Below, one piece after another: positions 10,841 through 60,194 of a stretch of 61,871 nt of DNA. The position numbers were made by a program, and so were the translations under genes. Under the pieces are notes generated by a model. The model was not told where the DNA came from. It searched no databases and saw nothing but the letters and a program-made list of their open reading frames with translations. The stretch is taken from positions 1-61,871 of the forward strand of contig JAHHIL010000028.1 of NCBI GenBank assembly GCA_019358975.1, read 5' to 3'. The number at the start of each line of letters is the position of its first letter. The first letter of the stretch is position 1. This DNA is from Trichocoleus desertorum ATA4-8-CV12. Lineage in GTDB: Bacteria; Cyanobacteriota; Cyanobacteriia; FACHB-46.

Positions 10841-10957
10841 TCGTGCAAGTTGAAAAAGCAATTGTGTTATACACAGGAATCGAACCTGTAGTACTTGATC
10901 TCAAATCAAGTGCCTTACCGTTTGGCGAGTATGTATGCTTCTTCTATTAGGGCACGA
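10841..10957 (-). ncRNA. YrlA-like RNA with tRNA-like head, copy C (117 nt)
   Basis: Terminal TCGTGC/GCACGA pairing and a second stem (10852-10860 with 10936-10944, one G-U) match the plan of copies A and B. On the minus strand the head holds three tRNA arms in order. They are a D arm GCC-AAACGGTAA-GGC, an anticodon arm CTTGA-TTTGAGA-TCAAG, and a T arm ACAGG-TTCGATT-CCTGT with a canonical T loop. The acceptor is reduced to about 4 bp (ATAC/GTAT) and runs into the Y-like stem, so this is not a working tRNA. It begins 14 bases after the stop of the small gene at 10972. Confidence 0.7.
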
Positions 10958-16832: not shown

Positions 16833-19800
16833 TCAGTCTTTAACTTCCGATCCTCTAGAGTCAGTCCCATAGGCTTCTAAGCTCTCCCTCATATCACTTG
16901 AGACCGCTTCATTGAGCCAGGAATCTGACTCAGTTGTAGGCTCTCCGCCTGGATCACCCGCAGGAGATTCAATCTTAAACCGGACAGGTGATCCAACCTC
17001 TGGCTCTATCTCTAAACGCTGCTGAAGTTGCTGCCGTTTCTCCTGCCGACGTTGCAGAATCCCCCACACCTGCTGCCAATGAGCCAGATCCAGACTGTAC
17101 ACCCTGAGTTTCTCCCTCTCATAGCCGGGATGAGTTCGAGACCAATGCATGGTTAACTTAATACCTATTTGGGAGAGGAGCTGGTGAATGATCTGAGTGT
17201 CACTCATCGCGCTGGTAATGGTGTAGTGGAGTGCGACTTTGATTGGTGCTGTCAGTTCTCGGGCGCGATCGGCGTAGGGTTTCAAGTCGTACTTGCACCA
17301 CTGCCAACCAGAGCGCATCTTGGCAATGAGTTCATCCATGCCAATGTTTGAGCGCAGCCAACGCCGCAGTTCGGAGCCGGAAATATCCCAAGGGCAATAC
17401 CCCTGGTTCCAGGTCGCCTGCTTCTCCAATGCTTTAGCACTGCGATCGCTGGCCACGCCTGGAAACAGTTGCATCTCCAGGTTGAGCAGCTCTCCCCGCC
17501 GTCTGCCTTCTTTGTCCCACAACACATCTTCTAAGGTGAGGCAATCGAGGCAGTAGAACTCTTTGAAGTAAAACTTGGCGACTGCTAACGATTCTTCTCG
17601 CCCCAGTCCCTCCCTTTGCTCCAACATGAGAATTTCGCTGAACCTGAGGTCTTCTGCATTTAACATCGCCTCCGCATCTACCTCCTGCTGTTCTTGGCGA
17701 GCGATCGCCAGCAGCGCTTTCATCGCTGAGTTGTTTTCCCGATCTTCGATGCTCACTTGATTACCTTCAAATCGCAGTCGTACTAGTAGGGCATCCCTCA
17801 AGTGATACATGGCGAAGTTCTGTTCAGCAGCAATCCGGCAAAACAGGTTGAGATGGGGATCACTCTGCCAGTCGTAGTGAGTGACTTCCCCGGTGACATC
17901 TTCTTTCAAGCTGGAACGAATCAGTTGAATGGTGGCCGTAGTGCGTTGCTGGAGATGGTCTTTGAGCTCCAGGATATTGGGGGAACGACTCACCTTCGAG
18001 AAGTTGCTACCTCGCTGGGCACACCAGACGAGGCGCTCAACCGGTTCTCGAACTCGACCCAGGGCCTGGGCCATATCTGCGTCGGTGCTGGAGGTTCCGG
18101 TAAAAATGCCGTAGACCTTGGAGATGATGCTTTGAGCTTCAATGCTGACTCCCGTCGCCACCGAGGGAGAACAAATAATCAGGTCATATTCACCTCGTTG
18201 CAGCACCACGTCTGGAGTTTGAATAAATTCGCGTTCGCAATCCCCGCCGCTGGTTTCGGAGTTGACGAGCAACAAGCGCTGGTGGGGAGCCTCTTGGCCA
18301 ATCAGGCGGGCGATCGCCTTACTGGTTCCCTTACTATCAGTGGCGACGAAGAGAACTTTGCCGCGTGCCAAGGATTGCATCTCTGCTAGCAGTTTTCCAG
18401 TAATGGCGCTGCGATCGGGGGAGCGAATAAAGCGCACGGGGTAGCCTGCGGACTGGTAGGCGTTGCGGATTAAGAAAATGGGGGTGTCATCGCCTCGCAA
18501 CTCTTTCAGGTAATGCAGAGTCGCGTTGTCAAGATCGGCGTCAGCCACAATGACGCGACGAGCTACTCGAATCAGTTCGCGTAACCGTGATAGCAGCACC
18601 GGACGTTTGCCATCCTTGGCACAGGTCGAACTCGTCAGCAGGTGGCGGATGACCTGCACCACTTCATCGAGGATGAGATCACATTCGCTGAACTTGTTGG
18701 GATCAATGCTGAGTAAGGAGTCCACACACAGTCCGACTCGCAGGGTGTAACCGGCTCCATTGATAAACTCTCCCTTGACCTTATCGAGATCCCCTTTGTA
18801 GTCCAGTCCCAAGCGAGCGGACAGGTTGCGCATCAGTGCGATGCGGTGCCCTCCCGCGATCGCTTTTTCAGAATCTTGGAGTAGTGCCTGAATTTGTTTG
18901 GTTTTCCCAGTGCCTTTGGCACTCGCGATCGCCACAATGCCGCTGTCAGGAAGATGGTTGAGGACGAGAGTGGACAGGTCAGCGGTGGTGACTTTAACTG
19001 CGGCGGGATAGGTCAACCGATGCTCTAAGCGTTGCCAGATCAACCAGTGCTGCAAAGGCAGTGCCTGGTCGTAAGCACTCTGCCAAGCGGCAGCGCCACA
19101 GCGCACCATCAAATCATCGACCCCTTTGCCTTGAGCCGCTTTCCACGTTGCGACACTGACTAAGTTGCCTGCTTGACCTAGCAATCCTCCCAAGCGATAC
19201 AGGGCCACGGACACTCGTTGTTGGGTCGCTTCCTTTTCGTCCTGGTCAAACGCCAAAACGAAGCGGCGATCCGGGATAGCAAATCTTGCAGCATCGGGAA
19301 TCAACCGTCGAGTGCCATCGAGTAACCTTTGATAACCGCCGTTGACCCCGTAGAACGCCAAGGGCACGAAACCCTGACTCAGTAGCGAGAGCGCCTTTTT
19401 ACCCCCTTCAGTCGGCACCAGGGGAATTTCAGGGTGTGCCTCAACCCAATCCCAGAAGGAGCCAAACAGAGGAATTTCTACGCCATAGCGCCGACCGATT
19501 AACTGTCGAATTTCAGGTGGGACCGGGGGGAGATAGGCGCGGGAACCATTGCCGACAGGAGTTTCGTACTTCTGAATTTTACCTTTGCTATTGTGCCGGG
19601 GATGACTCAGTTTTGCCTGCCAGCAGGAACCATCTTCATTGATGAGTAGAACGGCATACAGATTGGTACGGGCCTGATACCCAAAGCGAGTCACATGCCA
19701 ATTCAACGCTTCGTGGATGGGATAGGTAACCTCACCACCCGGGAGCGATTCAGTATCGCCAACCAATCGGGTTGCAACTTGGTACAGGCAGGGCGCGATC

Positions 19801-19883
19801 GCGCTACCTTCTACAAATTCTTGTTGGATTTGCTGCGCAAACTCATCTCGGTGAGTTGAAGGAAGAGAGACTAGGAACGTCAT
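16833..19883 (-). CDS. Plasmid replication protein, CyRepA1 family (DUF3854 plus helicase-like ATPase)
   Basis: 1016 residues. The N-terminal third is a DUF3854/TOPRIM-like primase region: PLVPTEGGKKALSLLSQG at 155-171 (acidic Glu), LAFDQDEK at 210-217 and GKGVDDLM near 252-259. The middle is a P-loop ATPase with Walker A ASAKGTGKT at 320-328 and Walker B LILDEVVQ at 403-410. Helicase-like features follow: VADADLDNATL, LFVATDSKGTSKAIARLI, and MAQALGRVREPVERLVW as an arginine-finger-like motif VI. This layout is characteristic of cyanobacterial plasmid initiators that prime and unwind the origin. The upstream 1-kb region holds origin-like repeats. The C-terminal 40 residues are acidic and low in complexity. 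Confidence 0.88.
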   Translation of the reverse strand: MTFLVSLPSTHRDEFAQQIQQEFVEGSAIAPCLYQVATRLVGDTESLPGGEVTYPIHEALNWHVTRFGYQARTNLYAVLLINEDGSCWQAKLSHPRHNSKGKIQKYETPVGNGSRAYLPPVPPEIRQLIGRRYGVEIPLFGSFWDWVEAHPEIPLVPTEGGKKALSLLSQGFVPLAFYGVNGGYQRLLDGTRRLIPDAARFAIPDRRFVLAFDQDEKEATQQRVSVALYRLGGLLGQAGNLVSVATWKAAQGKGVDDLMVRCGAAAWQSAYDQALPLQHWLIWQRLEHRLTYPAAVKVTTADLSTLVLNHLPDSGIVAIASAKGTGKTKQIQALLQDSEKAIAGGHRIALMRNLSARLGLDYKGDLDKVKGEFINGAGYTLRVGLCVDSLLSIDPNKFSECDLILDEVVQVIRHLLTSSTCAKDGKRPVLLSRLRELIRVARRVIVADADLDNATLHYLKELRGDDTPIFLIRNAYQSAGYPVRFIRSPDRSAITGKLLAEMQSLARGKVLFVATDSKGTSKAIARLIGQEAPHQRLLLVNSETSGGDCEREFIQTPDVVLQRGEYDLIICSPSVATGVSIEAQSIISKVYGIFTGTSSTDADMAQALGRVREPVERLVWCAQRGSNFSKVSRSPNILELKDHLQQRTTATIQLIRSSLKEDVTGEVTHYDWQSDPHLNLFCRIAAEQNFAMYHLRDALLVRLRFEGNQVSIEDRENNSAMKALLAIARQEQQEVDAEAMLNAEDLRFSEILMLEQREGLGREESLAVAKFYFKEFYCLDCLTLEDVLWDKEGRRRGELLNLEMQLFPGVASDRSAKALEKQATWNQGYCPWDISGSELRRWLRSNIGMDELIAKMRSGWQWCKYDLKPYADRARELTAPIKVALHYTITSAMSDTQIIHQLLSQIGIKLTMHWSRTHPGYEREKLRVYSLDLAHWQQVWGILQRRQEKRQQLQQRLEIEPEVGSPVRFKIESPAGDPGGEPTTESDSWLNEAVSSDMRESLEAYGTDSRGSEVKD

Positions 19884-28932: not shown

Positions 28933-31900
28933 TTATCGCTCATAACTCGCCACGACTGCTGGGTTGTGTGCCGCTAACTGAAGCTGTTGAGCAAACCGTT
29001 CAAATCGAGCGGCATCGCTATTGGTAATTCGGGTCGCTTTACAATCAACCCTGCCCTGTTCCACTTTGAGGATTAACCCCCGTCCCCAGGACAACATCTC
29101 GGTGGGTAACTGCTGGCAATCGCCCTCGGTCGGTTGCACTCCTCGTCCTAGAGCCGTCGCTGCTAGCAGGCCATCGCGTTCAAACAGGAGGCACTGCTGA
29201 CCGCTATAAAACATGCCCCCTGCCATTGGTTGTCCCTTCAGGGCCAGAATGGTTTGAGCCTGGGCAACCACCGTTTCGACTTGGGCAAGCCACTTTGCCT
29301 GGTCTTTCGCCATTGCCTGCAATGCCTTTGCGCTCAGAGGTTGCTGCTCCTGGGCAAGGGCTTTACCCACCTCCTCAATCCGTTGCAAATAGCGATCGGA
29401 CTGCCCAATCTCCCGCGCCTGGATGTACCACAACCGCATCTCATCTAGGGTCGGTTGTGGAGCTGGCTTTCCCAAAGAGGCAGCGTTCGTCGGAGTGATA
29501 GCGCGACCGGACGGTTCCCAAACTAATCGGGTCGGCTGATTTGTTTCAGAAGCAGTGGTATTCAACGGGATTGCTGGTTCGAAGCGGGTCTCTTGACCTC
29601 TCTCTTCTAGGGCTTCTAGCTTCGCTTGGGCGATGGCTACGGTCTCAGCAGGGGACTGCTGGCTTTGGACGCCTAGCTTGGTTAACGCCGCAGCAGTTTC
29701 TCGAAACGCTTGCAAATCCGCTTCGCTCACATCGGCTGTGGTAGCTGGATCAAGTTCTGACCCAATGCGTTGAGCCGTCATTTGGCTTTCCCCTTTCCCC
29801 ATGACAAAAAAATTGTCATTGTCTGGGTTGTAGCCGATATCGAAATGATGTCCCTGAACCGTCCAGAACCCCCCCTCAAATTGGAGATGCCCAATCTGCT
29901 CTGCGAAGGCATAAGCCCGTTCAGCAATTGCCAAGATCTCGAGTCCTCTGGCTAATTCAGCTTCTCTGGAGGCTGCGGGCATGGGAGATACTTCATCGGT
30001 TCGACCCTTTTGGATCAGATCTGTTGCTTGAGCGATCGCCGCTAATTCTACGTCTGTTAGGGGGCGTGGGTTTTTCGGGGCTAAAAACTCAGTGGCAATT
30101 TGAGCGATCTCAGAGCGCTCCTCCAGCTCGGTGACCTGATACCAGTTCCACAGCCCATCGCATGCTGCTTGACCCTCCCAGGCAGGTTGAGGAATATCCC
30201 GTAAGCAATCATTCCAATCTTTATACCCCTCTGGTTGAATCCGAATCAAGGCATGCTCGGGGAACTGTGGTACAACACTCCAGGCTTGGCGGTTGCCATC
30301 GCGATCGCTATCTTGGGCCAAAATGAGTTCGCCACCTCCGTCGAGTACCTGTTGAATGGTAGCCACGGGAATCGCTCCTCGCCCATCCGTAGACAGGTAA
30401 ACAGTTGCCCCCATGTCTCGTGACTCATCCATTGCGGCAAAAGCAATGGCATCGATTGGAGATTCCGTTAAAACCACGCGATCAATTGTTCCGTCTCCCT
30501 GCTGAATCCAGAAGAAACCGTCTTCCCGTCTGGTTCCAGGGGTGAGCCCTTTGAAGAACTCCCCGTCTGCATTAGGGATTGTGCCTCGGAGATTTGCCCC
30601 GATTGCGGCACCGCACTCAAAGGAATCTAGGAGTTCATGGCGAAAGAACATAACGTTTTGTCGAGAGTCTGCTGCGATGATGCCTTGCTGATGCAATGCC
30701 TCAACGATTTCTGGTGGGAGTCTGCGCTCCTCGGTGAGATACTGCTGTACCGCCTGCCACTGAGATTCGTCTCGAACATTGCAAGTGGGTGGGCGTTTCT
30801 GGAGTTCGGTCTGTTCAGGGATTTGTGGGAGATGCTGGGCTTCTGCCAACCACGAAAGTGCGTCCTTGTAGCTACTTCCCTGAACGTGCATGACCAGATC
30901 GATCGCCCCGTACTTGCCCGTCACACCTGTTGCCCAGTCTGAAAACCGGTGGTTATTGTTGTAAAGGCTGAGGGTATGCCCTTCATTGGTCCACTTCTGA
31001 GCGTCACGTTTGTCCTGAGTTAACCCTAGATTTTGGGCAACCTGAGCCAGCGGCAACTCGCGCAGGGTTGCTGCCAGCTGCTTCATCTCTTCACTCCTCG
31101 CTGGAGGCGGACTGGGATGAGGTTCTACTTCTTTGGCTGAAATGACTGCTTCAAGCATTGGGACAGGTCGGGCATTGCGTCCTGCCCAGTTCTCGCAAAT
31201 CATCGCTTCGACCTCAACGGGCACCTCTTTCAAGAACTGCTGCCCAGCTGCCACCATTGTTTGTACTAGAACTTGCCCTGCCCGATCTGCCTGGGTGGCT
31301 GGCACTTCCAAAACAATTTCGTCGTGTACCTGCATCAACAGCTTTGCTCCAGTTCCTCGCAGTTTTTCCGGCAACTCGGCGATCGCCAGCTTGGTAATGT
31401 CTGCTGATGTGCCTTGGACGGGAGCATTAATGATTTCGGTGAAGGGGGCTGTGCCGTCCCATTGGCGTAACCGTCCGCCCAAGGTTCGACAAGAGTTTGC
31501 CTGTTCAGCTTTGACGCGATCGTGCCAATCGATTAGGCCGGGGTAGGTCTTGAAATATTGGCTGCGATATTGCTCGGCTTGGGGCAGAGAGAGGGTGACT
31601 CCATAGTTGCTGTGGGCGTAACTTTGAAATCCTGGTGCCCCCATGCCATAAATCAACCCAAAGTTCACGGCCTTTGCCAGTCGCCGTTCATCTTTTGTGA
31701 CCTGATCCACTCCTTTATGGAGAAGCAGGCTGGCTGTGAGGGCATGGAGGTCTTGTCCATTTCGGTACGCCGCTTTCATGCGGGACTCCCCACTGACTTC
31801 AGCAGCAATCCGCAGTTCGATCTGGCTGTAATCGGCTTTGATCAAAACATTGCCAAGAGCCGGTTCAAAACAACCTTTGATGCGAGGGTCACGGGGGACG

Positions 31901-34900
31901 TTTTGGAGATTCGGGCTGGTACAGCTAAAGCGCCCGGTCACAGCCCCGCACTGGTTAATGTGAGGATGAAGTCGCCCCGTTGAAGGGTGAATCAGCTTCC
32001 CATACCCTTCTGCGTAAGTGGACAGGGCTTTCGCCGTCCGGCGATACTCCAACAATTGAGCGACAACGGGGTATTGCTCCTGCAAGGGGATGAGCGTTTC
32101 CTTGCGGGTGTTGGTGACTGGAATGCCCAACTGCTGAAGTGCTGGGAGCAGTTGTTTTGAGCTTTCTAGATTAATGGTGGGCAAGTGGTCATCTGATAGG
32201 GACGGCTGAATCACCTCTGCTTGCTGGAGGAGGGCTTGAATTTCTGGTTCTAAGCGAGATTTTTGATCCCGCAACGTTTGTGCCCAGGCTTGCAAATTCT
32301 CTCGATGGATCGCCATGCCGTTCCATTCCATCTCGGCCACGCCTATCACCGCACGGAACTCCAGCAGAGCAGTTTCAGCCAGCCCTTTTTCTTCTAGTTT
32401 TTCTGCTAGAGCATCTCGCAGCGGTAGCAATACCTCCACATCTTTGATTGCATACTCAATCTGGCTCTGGGTTAACTCGCCGCCCCAATGGCTTATCTGT
32501 TCAGTTTTATCAAGATCCACATTCAAATAGCGATGGGCGATCGCTTCGAGTTTATGAGACTGATTCAATCCAGCGCCAATCACTTGGGAAGCGAGCATCG
32601 TATCGAAGAGGGGTCCTTTGACCTCTAGCCCAATGGATTTGAGCATCTGGAGATCAAATGAAGCATTCTGGATAATCTTTTCGGCATCACTTCCCAATAC
32701 CTCATTAAGGAGGTGTAACTCCTCTGCTGTGAAATTAGCGCATTGAATCAGGGTGACAGGCTGATCGATGGCAGCAAGCTGAATTAGTTCTACCTGGTCC
32801 TGATGCGGATCAAGTCCCGATGTCTCGGTGTCGATCGCCAGCCTCTCAACACCACTCAAGCGAGGGATGATTTGTGCTAACTGGTCTACTGTCCTAACCC
32901 GTACTACCTCAAACTCATCTGAGGCTGCTGGAGTCTCTAATTCTGGGGACACTGGAAGTTCAAGTTCTACGATTTCTCCAAGCGCCTGAAGCTGTGTGGT
33001 TTCTGTGATGTCAGTTTTAGTAGCTACGTCTAGCTCCGGCTCTAGTCGCTGTGCTGCTAAAGTTTCCCGTGCGGCTTCGGCAAACCCTTGGTGCAGGAGG
33101 TTACGCGAGAAGAGTTGAGCAAAGCCACGATCTGGGTAACGGGATTCACCGCCTCGAAAGGGATTTTGCACCGCAGTTTCTTGAAACTGAAGCCGACCAT
33201 TTGGGTGAATCCCAAACACCATCTCAGAGTCAATCAAGGTGTCACCGTTCTGCTCCAGATAGTGGGTGAAGTAGAGTTGGCTGGCGTGTCGTTCGACCAC
33301 CAGGGGGATATACGGTCCATTCTCAATTCGCAGATGGAAGTCTTCCCCTTGCAGAACCAGGGAGGCTAATCCAGCTTCGTGCAGCAACTTCGCAACATTG
33401 CGTTCAGCACCTCCTGTTTGCTCTTTAGCCGGTAGAATACTCTCCTTGCCGGTTAGTTTTTCCGCCTGTTCCAACAATTCTTGCAGGGATGGAAGATCTT
33501 CTCCGAATGGGATTTGTTCATCCCCATGCCCCATCAACTGGTCTGCCTGCTCAAACAATTCTGGCAGCGATGGGAGAGGCCCTGTGGATGGTGCTTCGGC
33601 AAGAGGCAAGAGAGAATCAGTCTCTGCTTCAGACAACTGTGATGCTGCATCCGGAGCGATTACGGTAGAAGCGTTCAGCGCCCGCTCTAATTCTCCCTGC
33701 ATTTCGGTTTGGATTCCTAAGCGCATGAACTCCGGTGTTAACCCTAAGCGATCGCGCTCTGGATAGTGCTCTAAAAAAGGTTCTACCCCAGTTGGTGTAT
33801 TGGAGATGACTTGAAGTTTTGGTAGCCTGATGCCTAGAAACTCCCGCGCCTTGTCTTTGAAATCAAATGTAGCCAAGGCGTATCCTTGCTCACTGATCAA
33901 CACATTGAGAACCTGATCGATTCGTTCTACTGGAACGACGACCTCCATGCGATCGCTCACCGAGTAAAAGTCACTGCCACAGGCGGCAATCAGGGTTGGG
34001 TCGAGAGAGAAGCGAGCCCCAAGGCCGGAGTTTGGGGTTTGCAGGACAAAGCCAGCAGCGCTACTGCCAAGCCGAGCCGCCGCCTGGGATTTAACCGTCA
34101 GAACTTCATCAAGGGTTTTGACAGAGCCTTGATAGCCCGTGACTTCCGTCAAAAAGACTTTCACCTGTCTGGGGTCATGGAAGGTGACCGGTTCATTGCG
34201 CAGGGATTCTTGAATATCAAAGCTGGCAGGCATGATTAAACCCTGCCTCACTCCTCCAGTGTGGTCGGTATAGTTTAAAAACTTGCCGTTAGGGTATTTT
34301 TCATAGGCTTTGAGCAGGTTGCCCTGAAAGATTTGTCGCTCCAGGCGTTTGGTCTTTTGCCGCAAATCAAATGCCGCATAGATATCCTGTCCCTCCCAGT
34401 TGGTTTCCTGGGCCGTGATGGTTGTTGCTTTTCCCTCCTTGCCTCGGTTGAAGCGGGTCAGAGGGATGGTGAGGATACGGGCATAGTTATCGGTAAGAAT
34501 CTCAGCTCGCCAGTTAGTAGGGGCGGCAGGACTGCCGTTTTGCCCTTTCTGAAATACCTTGGCCACCACGCCATAGGTGATGTTGCCTTCAGGCGACACG
34601 ACACGGACCGATCGCCCGGGTGGAAAGTGCTTAAGCACCTGAGTGACATGAGTGTACTGGCTATTGAGCCGTTCTATGAATTTGTCTCGAGCGTACTTGT
34701 CATGCTTCGTGGGAAGGATGTCAGAGCGATATTGTAGAGTCACTTGTCGCAATTGCTCACTCTGCTGCCGAATCTGCTGAGTTGCGGCCTCTTCAGCTCG
34801 GCCAAAATCATGTTCAGCAACAGCTTTGACTCGCGCCAACCCCAGGTTTTCCCGAACGGTGTTGATGACTTCCAGTTGAGTGAACGGTTTAACCGGAACT

Positions 34901-36384
34901 TTGGCATCGACCACTTCTAGGTAAACAGGCCCGGTAAACTCGTTGCGAACCGTCGTCTCGTCTGAAATAACTTCCATCTGAGCGATCGTCCGAGCATCGA
35001 GATCTAGCTGCTGGGCCTCCAGCACACTTTCCCCCATTGCCTGCTTCTGAGCAATCAGATCTAGCGTTTCCGATTCAATCAAGCTGTAGAGTTCCTCCTG
35101 CTCTTTGACTGGAAGCAAGGGAATTCGCCCCGTCACCCGACTAATCAGTTCTGTATCTGTTTCCCCCTGGAGCCCCTCAGAGGGAAACGCCAGTTTTGCT
35201 TCTAACTCTGGGTTGTCTTCCAAAATCTCAGTAACGACTTCCTCACCGTAGGGATTGAGGAAGTCCACCACATTGGAAACGGATAACGCGGAATCACGAT
35301 CGGCAGTTGTATTGGCGTTGAGTGTCGCCATTTTTTTAGACAGGATGGCTCCTAAGCGCTTCTCAGCCGGGAGATCACTCATCAGTAGCGTAATTTCTGG
35401 TTCCACCACCTGCCCGAAGCGGTTGACACGACCAAACATCTGCATCACCTGGTTGATGTCGCGCTCAGGTTGCGCCATGATCATGTGTCGCTGTTGCTGA
35501 TCCACGAATTTTTCAGAGGCGTGAAGGTTAATACCTGTTGCACCAGAGCGGTTGAGGATGAGAACATCGAGTAAACCTCCATTGAATTGACTAACCGTTT
35601 CAACCTTTGCCTTTGGACTAACTTCTTTGGTTGAGCGAAAGCCATAGCCTTTTTCTCCGGTGGAGGTGTAATCGATCGTGTGCTGCCGTCCGGTAATCTC
35701 GCCAACCCGATAGCCTTCCTGATCGAGCCGCCACTTGATATAGTCAATGGAACTGAGGGGAATGGTAGACAGATCTACTTCATCAACCAAGGCACTCGCA
35801 TCTTCATATGCTGCGAGTGCTTCATCTCCTAGCTCCTCATCCGTCATCCGCCTGCGGATGGCATTTCCTTCGTAATCTTTAATCGTGACATCACGGGAGC
35901 GTTCCAGGTAGCGACCGAGAACATCCCCGAAGGAAATGTTGATGGCATCGCCCGGATTCAAGTTGTGATCATCGGCGTACTGTTTGATGAATGCTGCCAT
36001 CGTATTGGCAACCGCAATCACAGGTTTTTGCCCTCGCTCGATTGCTGCGATCGCCTCCTGCACGGTTGCCTCAGCCTTCTGACACAGCAAGCCTTGATCG
36101 ATCGCGTTGTTCATCAACGATGTGAAGTGGGTCGATCTCGCCCCGGTTTGCCCAATCGAGTTATCTTCGCTGGCGGCCTTGGCTTCTTTCTTCAGTTGTT
36201 TGCTGAGTTTCTGAACAGCCTTTTCCTTGACTAAATCAAACTGACTGATCGCCCGCATGATGCCAGAGATGCTATCCGCAATCTCGCGATCGACCCCAAC
36301 CGTCTTGGCGGCAAACGTGACCCCCTCAAACGATCGCTCTCGCCTGAGCATTTGACCGGAGGCCACAAATTTGGTGGCCATCAT
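28933..36384 (-). CDS. Giant protein: Strawberry-notch helicase C half, DEDD exonuclease, DNA polymerase A, DUF3991/TOPRIM region
   Basis: 2483 residues. Residues 1-400 are the C-terminal half of a Strawberry-notch-type superfamily 2 helicase (TGINLHAS near 281, QVMQMFGRVNRFGQ near 315). Residues 1170-1350 are a 3'-5' exonuclease (AIDTETSG, QNASFDLQML, YAIKDVE). Residues 1450-1750 are family A polymerase: motif A DYSQIELR near 1518, motif B KAVNFGLIYG near 1575, motif C QVHDE near 1683. Residues 1765-2060 resemble DUF3991/TOPRIM primase-like modules (LTESPIDAIAF, AQDSDRDGN). The rest is unassigned, with small repeat modules near the end. It presumably replicates or converts transferred DNA. 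Its ATG overlaps the stop of the upstream gene, which holds the missing helicase half. Confidence 0.85.
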   Translation of the reverse strand: MMATKFVASGQMLRRERSFEGVTFAAKTVGVDREIADSISGIMRAISQFDLVKEKAVQKLSKQLKKEAKAASEDNSIGQTGARSTHFTSLMNNAIDQGLLCQKAEATVQEAIAAIERGQKPVIAVANTMAAFIKQYADDHNLNPGDAINISFGDVLGRYLERSRDVTIKDYEGNAIRRRMTDEELGDEALAAYEDASALVDEVDLSTIPLSSIDYIKWRLDQEGYRVGEITGRQHTIDYTSTGEKGYGFRSTKEVSPKAKVETVSQFNGGLLDVLILNRSGATGINLHASEKFVDQQQRHMIMAQPERDINQVMQMFGRVNRFGQVVEPEITLLMSDLPAEKRLGAILSKKMATLNANTTADRDSALSVSNVVDFLNPYGEEVVTEILEDNPELEAKLAFPSEGLQGETDTELISRVTGRIPLLPVKEQEELYSLIESETLDLIAQKQAMGESVLEAQQLDLDARTIAQMEVISDETTVRNEFTGPVYLEVVDAKVPVKPFTQLEVINTVRENLGLARVKAVAEHDFGRAEEAATQQIRQQSEQLRQVTLQYRSDILPTKHDKYARDKFIERLNSQYTHVTQVLKHFPPGRSVRVVSPEGNITYGVVAKVFQKGQNGSPAAPTNWRAEILTDNYARILTIPLTRFNRGKEGKATTITAQETNWEGQDIYAAFDLRQKTKRLERQIFQGNLLKAYEKYPNGKFLNYTDHTGGVRQGLIMPASFDIQESLRNEPVTFHDPRQVKVFLTEVTGYQGSVKTLDEVLTVKSQAAARLGSSAAGFVLQTPNSGLGARFSLDPTLIAACGSDFYSVSDRMEVVVPVERIDQVLNVLISEQGYALATFDFKDKAREFLGIRLPKLQVISNTPTGVEPFLEHYPERDRLGLTPEFMRLGIQTEMQGELERALNASTVIAPDAASQLSEAETDSLLPLAEAPSTGPLPSLPELFEQADQLMGHGDEQIPFGEDLPSLQELLEQAEKLTGKESILPAKEQTGGAERNVAKLLHEAGLASLVLQGEDFHLRIENGPYIPLVVERHASQLYFTHYLEQNGDTLIDSEMVFGIHPNGRLQFQETAVQNPFRGGESRYPDRGFAQLFSRNLLHQGFAEAARETLAAQRLEPELDVATKTDITETTQLQALGEIVELELPVSPELETPAASDEFEVVRVRTVDQLAQIIPRLSGVERLAIDTETSGLDPHQDQVELIQLAAIDQPVTLIQCANFTAEELHLLNEVLGSDAEKIIQNASFDLQMLKSIGLEVKGPLFDTMLASQVIGAGLNQSHKLEAIAHRYLNVDLDKTEQISHWGGELTQSQIEYAIKDVEVLLPLRDALAEKLEEKGLAETALLEFRAVIGVAEMEWNGMAIHRENLQAWAQTLRDQKSRLEPEIQALLQQAEVIQPSLSDDHLPTINLESSKQLLPALQQLGIPVTNTRKETLIPLQEQYPVVAQLLEYRRTAKALSTYAEGYGKLIHPSTGRLHPHINQCGAVTGRFSCTSPNLQNVPRDPRIKGCFEPALGNVLIKADYSQIELRIAAEVSGESRMKAAYRNGQDLHALTASLLLHKGVDQVTKDERRLAKAVNFGLIYGMGAPGFQSYAHSNYGVTLSLPQAEQYRSQYFKTYPGLIDWHDRVKAEQANSCRTLGGRLRQWDGTAPFTEIINAPVQGTSADITKLAIAELPEKLRGTGAKLLMQVHDEIVLEVPATQADRAGQVLVQTMVAAGQQFLKEVPVEVEAMICENWAGRNARPVPMLEAVISAKEVEPHPSPPPARSEEMKQLAATLRELPLAQVAQNLGLTQDKRDAQKWTNEGHTLSLYNNNHRFSDWATGVTGKYGAIDLVMHVQGSSYKDALSWLAEAQHLPQIPEQTELQKRPPTCNVRDESQWQAVQQYLTEERRLPPEIVEALHQQGIIAADSRQNVMFFRHELLDSFECGAAIGANLRGTIPNADGEFFKGLTPGTRREDGFFWIQQGDGTIDRVVLTESPIDAIAFAAMDESRDMGATVYLSTDGRGAIPVATIQQVLDGGGELILAQDSDRDGNRQAWSVVPQFPEHALIRIQPEGYKDWNDCLRDIPQPAWEGQAACDGLWNWYQVTELEERSEIAQIATEFLAPKNPRPLTDVELAAIAQATDLIQKGRTDEVSPMPAASREAELARGLEILAIAERAYAFAEQIGHLQFEGGFWTVQGHHFDIGYNPDNDNFFVMGKGESQMTAQRIGSELDPATTADVSEADLQAFRETAAALTKLGVQSQQSPAETVAIAQAKLEALEERGQETRFEPAIPLNTTASETNQPTRLVWEPSGRAITPTNAASLGKPAPQPTLDEMRLWYIQAREIGQSDRYLQRIEEVGKALAQEQQPLSAKALQAMAKDQAKWLAQVETVVAQAQTILALKGQPMAGGMFYSGQQCLLFERDGLLAATALGRGVQPTEGDCQQLPTEMLSWGRGLILKVEQGRVDCKATRITNSDAARFERFAQQLQLAAHNPAVVASYER

Positions 36385-38870
36385 TTGCTGGAGTGGGACT
36401 CCCCCTCTTTGAGAGTTCGCTGCAAGGATGAAATGTCCGTCACTGCTGCGGTAGCATCGGATCTCCGTGCATAGAGATCCATCACAGCGGGGTCTTTAAC
36501 AGCGGTGGCACTGGCAAAAGCTACTCCAGCACAGCGATCGACTAGTTCTCGCACGAATTCAGCGCGATCCGGGGCTGCACTGGCAATTTTCCATCCTTTT
36601 TCTCCAATACTGCCTCCCGCTTCATGAGCCTCATCAAAAATAAAAACGGCTTTCGGAGCGAGCGATCGCAAAAGATCCCGACGAAAGGGTTCTTCGCTCT
36701 GAACGGTTTGCAGCTGGCTGTAGGTGGTGAAAACTGCGTGATATCCCCCCATTCCTTGTTCTAAAAGTTGTTGCATTTCTGCCTGCTTCTGGGGTGGGGA
36801 GACTGCTTTTAGTTTCGTTCCATCTGGCAGATCCAACGTTGTGTTGCTATTGGTTGCAAAGATTGTGACGCCTGGTTTACCGATGTCTGCCAAGTCTTCT
36901 AGCATCGATACATAGAGGTTGGGCTTCTGGGTGACAAAAATTGGAATGTATCCCTGGTTAATGGCATCCACAATTTGGCTGGCGCAGAAGCGTCCCTTTC
37001 CATTCCCTGTTTGGTCGCCATTGAGAAATACTTTGTTGCGATCGCGCTGCCAAAACGCCAGAGCATTTGCATCAATTTGCTCAGCGTAGAGATACTGCCA
37101 CATCTGCTCTTTGGATTCATACCCCAACCGCTGCTGCACAAAGGCATCAACATCACCCACAACTTGCTCTAATTTGTCGAGGGCAATCTGAGCTGCTGTT
37201 GCCATGTTGGCTGGAATTAGGGTGCCGGGTGTTCTACCTTGGCTGCGGGGAATGTAAGCCACATTCAATGGAGCATCCGAGCTAGGATGCTCTTGCTCTG
37301 TGATTGACATGGGTCGAATCCTTACTGCTGTATTGGGATAAAGGTTTAATCGCTGGTCATGCCGTAGGTCAGATTGGATAGCCAGTTCTCCAGCGTGAAA
37401 TTGTCGTGGTCCTCCTGCAAGCCCTGTTGCATCTCTGGGCTGCTTGGCTGAATGGGAAAGGGAAAATCTAATTCCGTCTCCGAGAATCGAATCCTGAATG
37501 TCTCGTTGCGTTCCAGAAATGTCTCTGCCCATTCCTCGGTCCACCACCATAGGGCCTCGAGTTCCTGAGTCTCGGAGTTCTCGTATAAGCTGGGAGACTC
37601 CTGGAGATAAAGCTTCCTCAACCCCTGAGCGAGTCTGCGGTGCGTCTGCACCTGATCCTCGCCACTGCGCTCCATCCAGGTGTGAATTAGCCACTGAATT
37701 CGCAGCATCATCAGACGGTTGTAATCCCGCTCGCTCATCTGGCTCATCCCCCATGGGATTTTGACCATCAATAATTCCTGATCCCCTAATTCTGGGCTCC
37801 AAACGGATGGGTAGCTCGCGTAATCCTGATAATCTGGTTGCTGGTTGCTGGATGGGTTCATTGGGGAGTAGCTCCTTGAGGGCATCGAAGGATTTATAAA
37901 TGGGCGGGACATCGGCGGCTGGTAACTCTCTGACTGCTTGCCCTCTGCCCTCAATTACAATCAGGTCGATCGGGAAACCCGCCCCCTGCTTGCGGTAAAG
38001 ATCACCCCAAATCGAAATATGTTGAGTAACCTGGTATTGCTGATAGAGAGCGTAGAAGAAGCCTCGGCTCTCAATGGCGTTGTAGCGATTCGAGCGGAGA
38101 TCTTCGTCTAATCCCAGCTTGCCTCCGAGGATCAGTACCGCTCGACCGTCATCCTTCATGGCTTCTAAGGCTTTGAAGGCGATCGCCTGATCGATCTGAC
38201 GAGTGCCCCTCCGATTGCCAGGGATGGCAAAGCGTTTAATTCTGCCCTTCTCATCGTGGATGGGTCCGAACGGTGGGTTGGCGATCACAACATCCACTGC
38301 TTCGCTTGGACGATACTGACTGGCATCAAACTGGGTGAGTTGGCGATAACCTCGCTGGGTCAATTCGGCATGGCGATCGCTGTTCAACTCGTTGGCAATG
38401 ACCTGGGCAGGATTGGCTTCAATGAGTAGGGCACCATTTCCAGCTGTTGGTTCATAGACGGTGGTTTCTGGATTGATTCCCGCTAGAGTGGAAGCTAGAT
38501 AGGCAATCGGAATAGGAGTGCTGTATGCCTGCTGTAGGACTGAGGTAGAAGATCGAACGCCGAGAACAGGCTGGCGATTCATCAGGTCAATAAGCTTGTC
38601 GTAGGCCTGGTGAGTCGTGGCTGATCCTGCAATGAAGATAGGAGCGACCCGGACGAGCGCCGCTTCCATCGCCTCATCCACCACTTTAGTGAGCGCGCTG
38701 CCAGGGGGAATACGCTCTCCCAACACCGCCTCGGCCTGCTGCCGCGCCCGGTTAATGCGGGCGTAATGTTCTCCTTGCAATAGCGAACTGTGGAACGCCC
38801 GAATCAGGGCTTCCTTACGCTCATTCATAAATTGACTAATTGGGTTATGGGAGTCGAGATTCGATGCCAA
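36381..38870 (-). CDS. N6-adenine methylase fused to the N-terminal half of a Strawberry-notch helicase
   Basis: 829 residues. Residues 130-290 form an adenine-specific methyltransferase (VYEPTAGNGALLIEAN for S-adenosylmethionine, VVIANPPFGPIH near 196). After a polar linker, residues 590-820 carry a helicase motor half: a modified P-loop, NGDQTGNGKGRF, near 617, VTQKPNLY, and Walker B AVFIFDEAHE near 742. The frame ends at 36381 directly beyond a C5 run (36401-36405). A -1 shift there would read on as GVPLQQMMATKF into the downstream gene, the expected continuation of the helicase. So this is one gene split by a frameshift, or one read by programmed slippage. Confidence 0.82.
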   Translation of the reverse strand: MASNLDSHNPISQFMNERKEALIRAFHSSLLQGEHYARINRARQQAEAVLGERIPPGSALTKVVDEAMEAALVRVAPIFIAGSATTHQAYDKLIDLMNRQPVLGVRSSTSVLQQAYSTPIPIAYLASTLAGINPETTVYEPTAGNGALLIEANPAQVIANELNSDRHAELTQRGYRQLTQFDASQYRPSEAVDVVIANPPFGPIHDEKGRIKRFAIPGNRRGTRQIDQAIAFKALEAMKDDGRAVLILGGKLGLDEDLRSNRYNAIESRGFFYALYQQYQVTQHISIWGDLYRKQGAGFPIDLIVIEGRGQAVRELPAADVPPIYKSFDALKELLPNEPIQQPATRLSGLRELPIRLEPRIRGSGIIDGQNPMGDEPDERAGLQPSDDAANSVANSHLDGAQWRGSGADAPQTRSGVEEALSPGVSQLIRELRDSGTRGPMVVDRGMGRDISGTQRDIQDSILGDGIRFSLSHSAKQPRDATGLAGGPRQFHAGELAIQSDLRHDQRLNLYPNTAVRIRPMSITEQEHPSSDAPLNVAYIPRSQGRTPGTLIPANMATAAQIALDKLEQVVGDVDAFVQQRLGYESKEQMWQYLYAEQIDANALAFWQRDRNKVFLNGDQTGNGKGRFCASQIVDAINQGYIPIFVTQKPNLYVSMLEDLADIGKPGVTIFATNSNTTLDLPDGTKLKAVSPPQKQAEMQQLLEQGMGGYHAVFTTYSQLQTVQSEEPFRRDLLRSLAPKAVFIFDEAHEAGGSIGEKGWKIASAAPDRAEFVRELVDRCAGVAFASATAVKDPAVMDLYARRSDATAAVTDISSLQRTLKEGESHSSK

Positions 38871-42312: not shown

Positions 42313-43011
42313 TTACGGCATCACTGAGCGCTGGTTAACAGACACTGAAGCCTCTCCCATTTCGGCTAAGCGGGAGATGAGGGTTATTGAAACGTGGGAT
42401 TGAGCGATCGCTTGGTGAAGCGGCAGGCCATTGCGAACGCGCGCTAGAAACGCTTGAGTCCGCCGAATGACAGGACTATTGCTTTCAATCAAACCTTGAA
42501 CGACTGCCTGTTGTAGTCCTCGTTCGACCGCTTGCCAGTTTGCAGGATGCAAATTTGCCCCCCTAGAATGGCTTTCCGGGGTAATCACCACGCTGGCGTA
42601 TTGTGCCTCTCCACTGCCATAGCCCACCTTAAACAGGTAGACCTTGCGGCCATAGGCAGACTGGGTCACGACTGTCAGCAAAGTGGTTGGAGTGGCGGGC
42701 AAATTGGGAAAGGAGATGCCTGTGACTCGCCGCAAGTGGATCAAAGATGCTCCCGCTTCTAAGTTGCTATCGAAGTCGATCGTCAACCTGTTGGGGTCAT
42801 CTAACCAAGCTCGGTGGATGGTTTCGCCAGTGTGGGTAAAGTCAATATTCGTCCCCGATCCTGGCCAAACGCTGATCTGGGCTCCGTTGCCACTCAATCC
42901 TTGGGCCTGCATCTGAGGAATGGAGCGAGTCATCGGTGTGGCGATCGCGCTCAGCGGAGCCGATAGGAGGGTGGCGATCGCAAGCAGAACAAAGATGGGT
43001 ACTGTTCTCAT
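42313..43011 (-). CDS. VirB9/TraK-like exported T4SS protein
   Basis: 232 residues with a signal peptide (MRTVPIFVLLAIATLLSAPLSAIA). The first part, ISVWPGSGTNIDFTHTGETI, then RAWLDDPNRLTIDFDS and the strands LLTVVTQSAYGRKVYLFKVG, resembles the N-terminal beta-sandwich of TraK/VirB9 proteins. A helical tail replaces the usual C-terminal domain. The position, directly after the VirB10-like gene, supports this. Start taken at the ATG 43011; a TTG at 43026 is possible. The first 170 bases overlap the end of the VirB10-like frame. Confidence 0.65.
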   Translation of the reverse strand: MRTVPIFVLLAIATLLSAPLSAIATPMTRSIPQMQAQGLSGNGAQISVWPGSGTNIDFTHTGETIHRAWLDDPNRLTIDFDSNLEAGASLIHLRRVTGISFPNLPATPTTLLTVVTQSAYGRKVYLFKVGYGSGEAQYASVVITPESHSRGANLHPANWQAVERGLQQAVVQGLIESNSPVIRRTQAFLARVRNGLPLHQAIAQSHVSITLISRLAEMGEASVSVNQRSVMP

Positions 43012-44680
43012 GGCTGGCAACTTCAAATGAATGGTGGATGAAAACTTGTAGGGCTTGACCGGCGGGAACCACCCACAGAGCGGGTCGGTTCACAATCTCT
43101 TGCATCTCCTGCTGATGCCGCTGTTGCACTTGTTGTGCGAGAGAACCAAACGCCCCCTGTAAGATGCCACCGACGATATTGGCATCTCCATTGTGGATAG
43201 ACGTAGAGGAAAGATAAGGGGAAGTGGTGGTGCTTTCAGAATGAGGGCGATTCAGCAATTGCCCAACTTGTCCTAATGCGCCATAGAGAGCTCTGTTTCG
43301 ATCCAGGCGCGCCAGTTCCCGATGCCCCGACTTTTCTCGTTCTGCAAGAATGGGTTTTCCCTGTTCCCGGGTGATGAGAATGGCGTCAGGCGGTAAACTG
43401 ACTACCTCTCCACCGTGGGGGGTGGGGAGGACGGCATGGGTGGCAGTCAGCTGCACGAGGCCACTTTGGGAAATCGAATTGACCTGGGCAATGAGTTGAG
43501 TGTCTCTGGGTAGCGCGATCGTGCCATTGCCTGTGGCAACCGCATCATTTAAGCGAATGGAGAAGCGTTGCGGTTGCTCTTCAGCTGCCAAATCTTCGGC
43601 CCAGAAAATGGGGGTTTGGAGAGTGGCGCTCGCCATTGCTCCTGGGAGAACTGGGTCAAAATCACTGGGGTGACCCGATAGGATGGCAGTGACATCAGCT
43701 TGGTAACGAGAATCGTCCCAAGCGCTCGCAAATTCTACCGCTGGGGTTCCAGGTTGACTAACCACGGACACCACCGCTTGCGGATGACGCTTCGGGAACT
43801 CGACTGACGCTGCCGTTTCATCGGATACATCACGAGACGAAGCACTCGGCATTTGTCCATAGCTACCCGCTACCAGCGCTTGTTGCCATGCCGTTTGGGG
43901 ATCTACCGCTGGGGCTGGGGAATCAACGCTTGAGACGACAGGAGACGTGGCAAAAGCACGGACTGGAGATGAAGTCGGAGCAATGGAGGGTGGCATCCGG
44001 ACTGGAGTGTAAGGGACGCTGCTGTAATTAGCAGTCGTAATCGTTCGAGTTGGGCTAACAGGCGTTGGAGTTTGCGTTCTGGAAGTTGAGGGAGATGGAT
44101 AGGCCTGCGCTTTGGGTGTGGGTCCATTACGGATCTGAGCTTGGTGATTTAACGTCTGAGCCTGACTTCCTAAAGCATTGATGGTTTTGAGATTACCGAT
44201 TTGCTCTTGTGCTGGGTCCACGGATGTCTTGTCTGCTGTTGGTGGAAGTTGAGTCGGTTCTGGCTGTTTAACAACCGGCTTGATATTCTGCACGCTCCAG
44301 AGAAATAAGCCTAGACCAGCGACCCCCACCCCGATGATGGAGGCTACAAATCCACCCTTGGCCCAAGGATTGGTCCAGAGGGTTGGCTTCGTTGCAGCTT
44401 GTTCTTCTTCAGATTCGAGTAAATCTTCTGGGTCCAGCAAATCCGTTTTGAGTGTTGCGGGTTGGGGGACTTGCTCCTCAACCTCATCCGAGAAAAGTTC
44501 ATCGACCGGCTCCTCGCTATTGGGAGCGATCGCGTCTATTCGTTCGGGGGGCTGAGTCAGGGGTGTGGATGGATGTCTACCTGGGGGAGGGTCTGGCTTA
44601 AACCCAGTCAGTGCTGCCAGCATTTCCCATTCCCCAGCCGGTAACTCGACATGAGATAAGGGATCATTGTCTTCAAACAT
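42842..44680 (-). CDS. VirB10/TraB/TrbI-like T4SS scaffold protein
   Basis: 612 residues. An acidic cytosolic N-terminus is followed by one membrane helix near 112-133 (GGFVASIIGVGVAGLGLFLW) and a long proline-rich periplasmic linker (TPTPVSPTRTITTANYSSVP). The TrbI-type beta-barrel region carries FSIRLNDAVATGNGTIALPRDTQ and GGEVVSLPPDA, then VVPAGQALQVFI near the end. It spans both membranes and energises the channel in known systems. The last 60 residues (THLCSACDRHPP onward) overlap the next gene in another frame and look unlike the family, so the natural stop seems to have been lost. Confidence 0.82.
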   Translation of the reverse strand: MFEDNDPLSHVELPAGEWEMLAALTGFKPDPPPGRHPSTPLTQPPERIDAIAPNSEEPVDELFSDEVEEQVPQPATLKTDLLDPEDLLESEEEQAATKPTLWTNPWAKGGFVASIIGVGVAGLGLFLWSVQNIKPVVKQPEPTQLPPTADKTSVDPAQEQIGNLKTINALGSQAQTLNHQAQIRNGPTPKAQAYPSPSTSRTQTPTPVSPTRTITTANYSSVPYTPVRMPPSIAPTSSPVRAFATSPVVSSVDSPAPAVDPQTAWQQALVAGSYGQMPSASSRDVSDETAASVEFPKRHPQAVVSVVSQPGTPAVEFASAWDDSRYQADVTAILSGHPSDFDPVLPGAMASATLQTPIFWAEDLAAEEQPQRFSIRLNDAVATGNGTIALPRDTQLIAQVNSISQSGLVQLTATHAVLPTPHGGEVVSLPPDAILITREQGKPILAEREKSGHRELARLDRNRALYGALGQVGQLLNRPHSESTTTSPYLSSTSIHNGDANIVGGILQGAFGSLAQQVQQRHQQEMQEIVNRPALWVVPAGQALQVFIHHSFEVASHENSTHLCSACDRHPPIGSAERDRHTDDSLHSSDAGPRIEWQRSPDQRLARIGDEY

Positions 44681-56043: not shown

Positions 56044-57300
56044 TCACCCTCGCTCCGTCTCCCCTGGTTTTGGCGATGGGGTCTCTATGGAATCTTTTGA
56101 AAGGAACTCGAATACCTGTAGGTCCTCTGCTTCTGTCCGTGGACCAGTGTCTGAGCCTTCAGCATCAGACACTCTAGAGCGATCGCGACGGTAGGTGTGA
56201 ATCAGGCTGCGGTCGTGATCGGCTGACGGTTGCCATTGTGGGTGTTTCACCTGAAGCCACGCCTGGAGAGATTGCATCTGCTCAACGTCGAATGGGGTAA
56301 TATTTCCCAGCTGCTCCAGCCCTTGCAGTTGCCAGCAGTTCTGATCGCAGTAGTCGTGCCAGTTCGTTGCTGATACCAAGCGAGAGCTTCGCTGTTGCGC
56401 CCCGCGATCGCCAGGGCGATCAATCCAGAAGGTGTCAGTTGCAGGAACATAGCCAAAGCGATAGTTGCCGATGCCACTAACGTAGCTCTGATCCGCTTCA
56501 TCTAGGTGCAGCGTTCCATGTTGTTCCTGATAGGCGAAGAGTTGTTCCGCGATCGGCAAGATGGCATTGGCTCGACTGATTTGCTGTTCCCAGTATGTGC
56601 CTTGCCAACCGTCGCGGGGATCTGCTAGAGCTTCAAAACGGATGGATTGCGGCTGGGTGAGCCAGGTATCAATGTCCTGCCAAGTTTGGAGGTCATTGCG
56701 GCTCAATGACTGTGCATCCTCCCTTTGCACGCTATAGGTCATTGCGGCATCGTCGCGACTAATGAGATAGACCGCGTCATCCACCGTGACTCGGTAAAAC
56801 CATTCGTTGCTGTTGAGAGATTCCTTATAGGCCTCCGTTCCCTGCTCTACATAACACTCAAATAGTCGGGCAGCAGTAACTGAGATAGCCTCTTGTGCTT
56901 CAGGGAGGAGGGAGTGCTCTAGTTTCCAGGCTTGTTGTGCCGAAGAGGTGAATGATCGTAAGTCAACCGTCTCAGGAACCGCCTGGTCATCTAAAAAAGC
57001 GTTCAGTTCCCGGAATTCCTCCAGTTGTTGATCAGTGATTTGGGAGCTGTTGCCAGAGAGAAACGCCTGCTCATGATATCCCAACTGCCAGCTGCCAGCA
57101 TTCGCCGTCATCCAAAGCGAATCAGACTCGGGGTTGTAAATCAGGGTATGCTCGTTGCCTACATATTGCCAGAAGCCATCTTTCGTTCTCTCCAAGCTGC
57201 CCCGATCCTGAGCCAGGGCTAAGGTTCGCTCTAGAATCAGCCGAACTTCCTGAGCGCGAGACTCTTGTTCTGGGGAGGATGAGTCAGATAGATACATCAT
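56044..57300 (-). CDS. Hypothetical protein built of repeated 'W-x-x-x-G-x-x-Y-x-x-x-Y' modules
   Basis: 418 residues with at least three similar units of about 100 residues. Each has a strand pair, then an acidic turn, then a helix: GFWQYVGNEHTLIYNPESDS, EWFYRVTVDDAVYLISRDDA, and YVSGIGNYRFGYVPATDTFW. These are followed by DLQTWQDIDTWL-like helices. A similar unit, FWTVQGHHFDIGYNPDNDNF, occurs in the C-terminal part of the giant polymerase protein. The module may be a nucleic-acid or protein-binding adaptor shared by the transfer proteins. Its start overlaps the upstream membrane-protein gene by four bases. Confidence 0.65.
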   Translation of the reverse strand: MMYLSDSSSPEQESRAQEVRLILERTLALAQDRGSLERTKDGFWQYVGNEHTLIYNPESDSLWMTANAGSWQLGYHEQAFLSGNSSQITDQQLEEFRELNAFLDDQAVPETVDLRSFTSSAQQAWKLEHSLLPEAQEAISVTAARLFECYVEQGTEAYKESLNSNEWFYRVTVDDAVYLISRDDAAMTYSVQREDAQSLSRNDLQTWQDIDTWLTQPQSIRFEALADPRDGWQGTYWEQQISRANAILPIAEQLFAYQEQHGTLHLDEADQSYVSGIGNYRFGYVPATDTFWIDRPGDRGAQQRSSRLVSATNWHDYCDQNCWQLQGLEQLGNITPFDVEQMQSLQAWLQVKHPQWQPSADHDRSLIHTYRRDRSRVSDAEGSDTGPRTEAEDLQVFEFLSKDSIETPSPKPGETERG

Positions 57301-58100
57301 GATGAAGCGTCTCCCTGGGATGTGGGTGAGTGATGGATCTGGAGGTGGGCTGGCTTTTGCCCCAATGAGGTGACGTGAAGCAACCCGACCGTCAGGGCAC
57401 TGGTCAGAAGGGCGAGAACGCCAGCCTCAAGGAGTTTGGTCAACCTACCGCTCTCTTTCCAATTCGAGATCGTCTGTTTCCAAGGATTGAGCCAGGTAGT
57501 TTGCGCCTGAGTCCGACGTTTCCTGGGGTGAGCCGTGCTCAGTCCGGTTAGGGCATGAATCATCAGATCGAGCTTCGTCCTCAGCTCGTACCATTGTTCG
57601 TCGCTCATACCGCTCGAGGACTTGGGCCACGAGTTCATCCAATGCGCGAAACTCTGTTCCAAGTCTGCTTGTTTCGCCGTTGCCTCCAGCATCCGTGCTA
57701 GTCCTGCCATGCTCTGAGGGAGTGGCTTGAGGTCGGCAATCAAATTGTTCACCTGCTGGTGGCTCGCCAACTTCTGAACCATCTGCTGCAATTGGAGCAT
57801 CTGCTCGCTCGTCGCTGGTACAGGGTTCTGGGTTGACGTGTTCGGTTCGACTGCGTTTGCCTCCGGGGGTACCATACGCCCTAGCTGCATTCGTCTCTGG
57901 TGAGCAGGCAAGCTCTGAGGAGAACTGGCGATCGCTGGGGCTGGGTTCTCTAAAGGCTGCGATCGCGGTGGTAGCTTGACCACTGGGTTGCGGGTGGGGT
58001 TTCCTTGATAAGGGTTGCTGGATTGAACCACTGTGGGTGGAGCTATCCGTTTGGGAGAACACTTCTTGAACTCGTTGAAAAACATAGGAGCTCGTTCCAA
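57297..58100 (-). CDS. Membrane-tethered hypothetical protein overprinting the relaxase tail
   Basis: 267 residues in a different frame from the relaxase, whose last 656 bases it overlaps completely. The first 90 residues are proline-rich, then helical (MLQLQQMVQKLASHQQVNNL, MAGLARMLEATAKQADLEQS). It ends in one membrane helix (AGVLALLTSALTVGLLHVT) with a short tail. Protein-like composition, a single clean membrane segment and an ATGA overlap with the next gene support it as real. It may tether the relaxase complex to the membrane. Confidence 0.6.
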   Translation of the reverse strand: MERAPMFFNEFKKCSPKRIAPPTVVQSSNPYQGNPTRNPVVKLPPRSQPLENPAPAIASSPQSLPAHQRRMQLGRMVPPEANAVEPNTSTQNPVPATSEQMLQLQQMVQKLASHQQVNNLIADLKPLPQSMAGLARMLEATAKQADLEQSFAHWMNSWPKSSSGMSDEQWYELRTKLDLMIHALTGLSTAHPRKRRTQAQTTWLNPWKQTISNWKESGRLTKLLEAGVLALLTSALTVGLLHVTSLGQKPAHLQIHHSPTSQGDASS

Positions 58101-59208: not shown

Positions 59209-59209
59209 G

Positions 59210-59785
59210 TTATTCCTCCTGGTCGGGGTCTGGAGTGGGAGGGGTTTCGATGCCAAGCCGGATCGCATAGCGTGTGAGTTCTGCCTTAATTGAATCTGCC
59301 ATGTCCTTGCGGTCGAGCTTTTCTTCAGGGAGTGCCACATCGAGCAGGATGTGTTCACCTGCTAGAATCAGCGCTTCCACTTCTCGGCGCGTGAGGGAAG
59401 CCAGGGCAAAAATATCTGGCAACAGTGCCAGCAGTGGGTGAAACTCATCCAGGAACACCTGGTTTTCCGTGAAGAGTCGCGTGATGTCCCGTCGCGTTTG
59501 TTGCTGTTCTTGGATTAAGGAGGCAACGATCGGCTCTAACCCCTGTTTGAGCAGAGAATCGTCAAACTTCAGGTGCGGCTCGGTTTGGGTAGGTGCAGCA
59601 GATGGGGCAATTTTCGCCAACTGATTTGCCCCAGGTAGCGGTAGGTTGGCTGCAAAGAACGCTCGGACGACTTGAGAGATTAAGTCAGAGGTGCGGATTC
59701 CGGCTTGGGCGGCAATCTCGTCGAGTTCTGCGGCTTTTTCATCCGGGAAGTAAACCCGGTACTCTTTATGGTTTTTACGAGTCAT
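59210..59785 (-). CDS. Ribbon-helix-helix relaxosome accessory protein (MobC-like)
   Basis: 191 residues from the ATG at 59785 (MTRKNHKEYRVYFPDEKAAE). The start is a strand plus helix-turn-helix arrangement, EYRVYFPDEKAAELDEIAAQAG-IRTSDLISQVVRAFF, a ribbon-helix-helix pattern. The remainder is helical (LEPIVASLIQEQQQTRRDIT), ending in an acidic tail. Proteins of this kind bend oriT and help the relaxase, whose gene begins one base after this stop. No ribosome site precedes the ATG, so an upstream TTG (59824) cannot be excluded. Confidence 0.68.
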   Translation of the reverse strand: MTRKNHKEYRVYFPDEKAAELDEIAAQAGIRTSDLISQVVRAFFAANLPLPGANQLAKIAPSAAPTQTEPHLKFDDSLLKQGLEPIVASLIQEQQQTRRDITRLFTENQVFLDEFHPLLALLPDIFALASLTRREVEALILAGEHILLDVALPEEKLDRKDMADSIKAELTRYAIRLGIETPPTPDPDQEE

Positions 59786-60159: not shown

Positions 60160-60194
60160 AAAAAATTTTTCATTTCTACTTAGAGATTAAAGCG

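Follow-up and report, generated by a model that had tools for sequence, protein, structure and literature searches.

The window analysed here, the whole of contig C28 (61,871 bases) from a draft genome of 6.06 Mb in 90 contigs, holds two overlapping ORFs on the minus strand whose predicted domains look like parts of one large protein. This raises the question of whether the pair is one gene read through by ribosomal slippage, two genes whose products act together, or a single gene that is one base short, either in the strain or only in the deposited contig.

Two reading frames of one gene

The upstream ORF (36381..38870, minus strand; 829 codons, from TTG as listed) carries a methylase-like domain and the first RecA-like lobe of an SNF2/Strawberry-notch motor, and the downstream ORF (28933..36384, minus strand; 2483 codons) carries the remainder of the motor, DUF6908, an exonuclease, a family-A polymerase, a TOPRIM primase-like module and a C-terminal tail. 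The first frame ends as ...TLKEGESHSSK*, with its TGA at 36383-36381, and the second begins with an ATG at 36384-36382 of the same strand. The start/stop overlap, in which the downstream ATG lies over the upstream TGA (36381..36384, minus strand), reads AAATGATGG and not ATGATGA, as the first-pass annotation had it, and its layout could permit re-initiation.

That annotation had also placed a one-base offset at a plus-strand CCCCC at 36401-36405. We found the run in place; on the minus strand it is a run of five G (36405-36401) at which the family frame exits the upstream ORF and enters the downstream ORF, and ESHSSK, the last six residues of the upstream ORF, lies outside the family frame. 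When the sequence is read one base back at this run, the joined reading is ...KEGGVPLQQMMATKF, the same peptide that is encoded directly by L021 (JAIXVO010000786.1), a sister plasmid contig (cyanobacterial MAG) that is collinear with the window over 23.2-46.1 kb and holds every module in a single 3236-codon ORF. The DNA of the window and L021 aligns with a single one-base gap at the junction, and wherever a homologue spans the site, both window ORFs align to one unbroken ORF in it. This bears out the proposals of a single gene whose two ORFs are shifted by one base, and of an unbroken Strawberry-notch/SNF2 motor after a -1 joining. The fused protein had been put at ~3,320 residues; counted from the TTG it would have about 3,310. 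The gene is without a second copy in the genome (one DNA match; one match in G000).

All of the domains named at first pass (methylase, helicase, exonuclease, polymerase and TOPRIM) were recovered by Pfam across the two ORFs, and all lie on the minus strand. The methylase-like region (37881..38573; UPF0020/N6_Mtase), with a motif I-like YEPTAGNG and NPPF, is followed by the first motor lobe (36384..37193; AAA_34, SNF2 fold of the L021 homologue) and the second (34975..36384; Helicase_C_4, L021 homologue model), and the two Strawberry notch profiles score well above their thresholds (AAA_34, 52.5 bits with a cut-off of 27; Helicase_C_4, 77.6 bits with a cut-off of 30.5). DUF6908 (33079..33399; Pfam) comes next, then a 3'-5' exonuclease module (32392..32898; DNA_pol_A_exo1) that keeps motifs ExoI/II/III, a family-A DNA polymerase module (31183..32274; DNA_pol_A) that keeps motifs A, B and C, and a primase-like DUF3991 plus Toprim_2 region (30202..30744; Pfam) with a DWND (DaN-) motif. 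The names given to the motor, exonuclease, polymerase and Toprim motifs are those to which we take these residues to correspond.

Protein identity between the window and L021 is 83% for the upstream part (813 codons) and 81% for the downstream part (2415 codons), and pN/pS over the same codons is 0.21 and 0.17, respectively. Since pN/pS is low in both halves, both were kept as protein until recently; judged by their substitutions, the two halves resemble selected coding sequence.

The junction among homologues

To see how relatives read across this site, we gathered homologues from a plasmid collection (472 records matching the first half, 441 matching the beginning of the second), from a scan of named genomes (67 loci) and from a scan of IMG/VR (28 loci). 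The junction survey comprised 115 loci, two of which are the window's own sequence and 10 of which are without one or both flanks (L007, L009, L010, L013, L025, L073, L084, L086, L087 and L092); the remaining 103 hold both flanks, although at least five of these are repeat fetches (L005/L019, L006/L011/L054, L008/L022 and L015/L045), leaving at most 98 distinct places. A single frame crosses the junction in all 103, and in 102 the sequence from the outer end of one matched stretch to that of the other is free of stops, the exception being L047, which is broken elsewhere. The frame break is thus specific to the window copy, and no relative carries it.

The first-pass annotation had offered programmed slippage as one option, and a programmed or leaky -1 slip at the G run would produce both a short and a full-length protein. 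Judging from the letters, the P-site GGG codon could re-pair one base back. Among the 103 loci, however, we found no conserved slip site, because the junction codons and the G-run lengths vary (longest run 1 to 6), and no homologue has the offset frame; L021 codes the site as GAG GGA GGT, with no homopolymer there. The window region does fold better than most shuffles (z -2.1), but the in-frame region of L021 has a predicted fold just as strong (z -2.9) and of another structure. Because both sequences fold well but differently, we set aside the idea of a shared RNA structure that stimulates slippage. In the passages of Antonov et al. (PMC3711429) that set out their scheme, the programmed class needs a conserved shift site within a cluster, and singletons go to indel mutation or sequencing error; by this scheme, the window singleton is one or the other. 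We consider slippage highly improbable.

Five relatives are truncated or frame-broken at other points (L025, L047, L073, L084 and L086), and in L025, L073 and L086 homology starts near downstream-ORF residue 47-57, with unrelated sequence before it. Such cases point to a gene in decay rather than to a particular site.

A functional split would mean that the ORFs yield two proteins, coupled in translation, that come together to rebuild the motor, and its bearing depends on where the motor is divided. The L021 motor model (739 residues, mean pLDDT 81) aligns to SNF2 ATPases with Z about 17, values that come from a second look at Foldseek's ranking and not from an independent search; when the motor profile was run against the sequences of solved structures, nothing matched at E 0.01. 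In the L021 model, a predicted helix (residues 253-277) contains the break, and six residues, GVPLQQ, are in neither window product, including G264 and P266, which are invariant among 31 sequences, and Q268 and Q269, which are nearly so. As the first-pass annotation had noticed, the motor halves fall on separate proteins, with Walker A, DEAH and SAT on the first and the motif V/VI regions on the second.

The catalytic motifs kept in both halves, the low pN/pS and the ATG/TGA overlap are what a split would lead one to expect. Even so, invariant residues inside a predicted helix are lost, the stop/start overlap is a by-product of conserved MM residues and not of selection for coupling, and none of the 103 homologues consists of two adjacent ORFs at the site, so the survey gives no second two-gene case. 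Homologues consistently encoded as two genes had been named in advance as the outcome that would overturn the one-gene reading, and the opposite was found (0/103 split at the site). On this survey both the programmed slip and the natural split were rejected, and we regard a functional split as very unlikely.

A lost base: mutation or read error

What is left is a single gene that is one base short in the deposited sequence. We lean modestly towards a real mutation and rate a homopolymer read error as somewhat less likely, because none of 678 chromosomal homopolymer runs of at least five bases had a frame break. This control compared 60 stretches (1.2 Mb) of the window's genome with 80 stretches (1.6 Mb) of a same-genus genome and covered 232 orthologue-like ORFs with 81,260 aligned residues, at a median identity of 95.5% in the reverse comparison. 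Across 212,147 bases matched at 80% identity or more, 0/678 runs (220 of G or C) were frame-broken, a count that rests on one same-genus pair and by construction takes in runs inside unbroken matches, with breaks then inspected by hand. Of the four breaks flagged, one lies in an upstream leader and another is an indel of 14+3 bases; the other two are single-base differences within runs of 2-3, and there either genome could be the aberrant one. In the reverse comparison, two loci accounted for the three breaks flagged. The result argues against an assembly that is prone to homopolymer errors.

The first-pass annotation had also offered a homopolymer read error, in which the strain's gene is intact and the deposited contig is one base short at the G5 run; the one-base loss held up, and the error as its cause we grade somewhat below mutation. 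We put this reading short of an even chance but still at a substantial one. The homopolymer context of the site fits it, as does purifying selection on both halves, as if the gene were intact, and a read error would give identical letters. Against these points stand the chromosomal control from the same assembly and the ordinariness of five-base runs in this gene, which has 37 homopolymer runs of at least five bases.

That another base is missing elsewhere on this contig also counts towards a read error. The VirB10/TrbI ORF (42842-44680, minus strand) is one base short relative to L021 just before its stop, near 42990-43015, and the missing base lets the protein run on at its C terminus, by roughly 57 residues, into the region of the next gene. 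Among the 15 plasmid matches listed, one ends at query residue 602 (25.7% identity), two at 564 (28%; near-identical Leptolyngbya boryana records, one a repeat) and 12 at 551-557, so among these matches the extension lies mostly outside the homologues' coverage. Two one-base losses in about 20.8 kb of compared genes are commoner than on the chromosome, although the divergence is greater here.

If a real mutation is the cause, as we favour, a long single gene of a conjugative cyanobacterial plasmid would have lost one base recently, only in the window copy and inside the motor domain. The upstream product would consist of the methylase, the first motor lobe and a short incorrect tail, and the downstream product, if re-initiated at the overlapping ATG, would carry the second lobe and the exonuclease, polymerase and primase-like parts. 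Because the motor motifs are divided between two products, the motor is probably non-functional unless its two halves come together again, and because the six lost residues include two positions that are invariant in 31 homologues, DNA translocation is probably lost in the window copy. The exonuclease, polymerase and Toprim motifs are intact in the second product, and polymerase and primase activities may survive there. The frameshift itself is ordinary; it serves as a warning that these two ORFs of the plasmid are one broken gene, and otherwise matters little.

The intact protein and its plasmid

Intact members of the family are "polyvalent" proteins of conjugative plasmids. Their common backbone is an N6-type DNA methylase with an SNF2/Strawberry-notch motor, joined in most cyanobacterial members by DUF6908; the C-terminal modules vary. 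The slot between DUF6908 and the primase-like module holds exonuclease-polymerase in L021, MutS_I in L014 and little or nothing in, for example, L054; L017 has MutS_I without a Toprim match. Among the fetched loci, for which short contigs and cut ORFs limit the count, only L021 has exonuclease and polymerase matches, and an exonuclease/family-A polymerase before the TOPRIM module was seen only in the window, L021 and a fragment on G203 contig C278. The fragment is 60% identical over residues 1122-1866, and a match to the DUF6908 region (976-1140) adjoins it within a frame of 1101 codons. When viral contigs were scanned for further exonuclease-polymerase-primase fusions, a single weak match, at the primase end, came up.

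Main-text passages of Iyer et al. (2017, PMC5512222) describe polyvalent proteins with methylase-SNF2 dyads, Strawberry-notch-like motors, MutS-I and Toprim primases, an N-terminal LPD36 domain adjoining the methylase and a DaN- motif that marks Toprim primases of mobile elements. The present gene resembles those of these passages in being carried by a conjugative plasmid and in combining numerous unlike enzymatic domains in a single polypeptide, although the single chain is that of intact L021 and of L014-L017, the window chain being two ORFs. The adenine-methylase and SWI2/SNF2-like motor dyad and the Toprim_2 primase with its DaN- motif are further likenesses to what these passages describe, as is MutS-I in the relatives L014 and L017. 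The first 100 residues gave no match in the general Pfam search. The same passages describe polyvalent proteins as few in cyanobacteria, whereas our survey found many cyanobacterial loci. Unlike the proteins of those passages, the window and L021 gene has an exonuclease/family-A polymerase module; the main-text passages on DNA polymerase and polA name no polymerase fusion, and a search of titles and abstracts returned no paper on one in such a protein. The intact protein is thus a variant of the polyvalent proteins, and its module set, not the frameshift, is the noteworthy part.

The added module matches the cyanobacterial plasmid bifunctional 3'-5' exonuclease/DNA polymerase NF011539 (score 669.1, cut-off 640; downstream-ORF residues 1160-1734), and its best plasmid records are cyanobacterial, 40-47% identical over at least 93% of the module. 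Unlike those NF011539 records, which are annotated as stand-alone, it sits between DUF6908 and the primase-like module. The latter resembles T7 gp4 and other TOPRIM primases through the window Toprim_2 match and a model of the L021 C-terminal module (nearest T7 primase, best Foldseek E 2.9e-4), although this model is of low confidence (mean pLDDT 68), no zinc ribbon was shown, and the primase activity is a predicted one. DWND lies within KDWND at downstream-ORF residue 2055, and D316, W317 and N318 are invariant in 14 sequences. PADLOC profiles matched only single domains, and a defence system reading was not adopted.

Phage P1 DarB, as described in the passages of Iyer et al. (PMC5512222) on it, likewise fuses an N6-adenine methylase to an SF2/SNF2-type motor. 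In contrast to DarB, the window gene is plasmid-borne, has Strawberry-notch-type profiles and carries long C-terminal replication-like modules, and any antirestriction role would be by analogy. From its families, the intact protein would travel with or act on transferred plasmid DNA: the methylase-motor pair would shield this DNA from restriction, the role proposed for DarB, and synthesis of the complementary strand would fall to the primase-polymerase part. We tentatively suggest, as a possible and doubtful reading, that the intact form, as seen in L021, serves as a one-chain machine for establishing conjugating DNA, in which a methylase-SNF2-type translocase, a proofreading family-A polymerase and a TOPRIM primase jointly mark and convert the incoming single strand, with exonuclease-polymerase, MutS-I or nothing in an exchangeable slot between DUF6908 and the primase. 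If these parts cooperate, post-conjugation DNA protection and complementary-strand synthesis could be studied with one purified protein, and in cyanobacteria, where polyvalent proteins were reported scarce.

With a TrwC-type relaxase, a TrwB/T4SS coupling protein and TrbI/VirB10 encoded on it, the window contig is most likely a conjugative plasmid. A search for terminal repeats (15-400 bases) that would indicate circular closure found none, and the contig ends are without overlap. The relaxase profile covers only residues 64-344 of the TrwC-relaxase ORF (57445-59358, minus strand), and a 267-codon ORF (57297-58100, minus strand) with a membrane helix predicted by eye overlaps it by ~655 bases in another frame and has no plasmid match at E 0.01. 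This layout recalls RSF1010, in which mobB lies inside mobA. A 1016-codon ORF (16833-19883, minus strand) with DUF3854 and a weak origin-binding-helicase match is a possible plasmid replication protein, and an actin-like protein (ALP_N; 60141-61289, plus strand) possibly serves plasmid partition. The contig also carries a tRNA-Ser (tga) gene at 10866-10936 on the minus strand.
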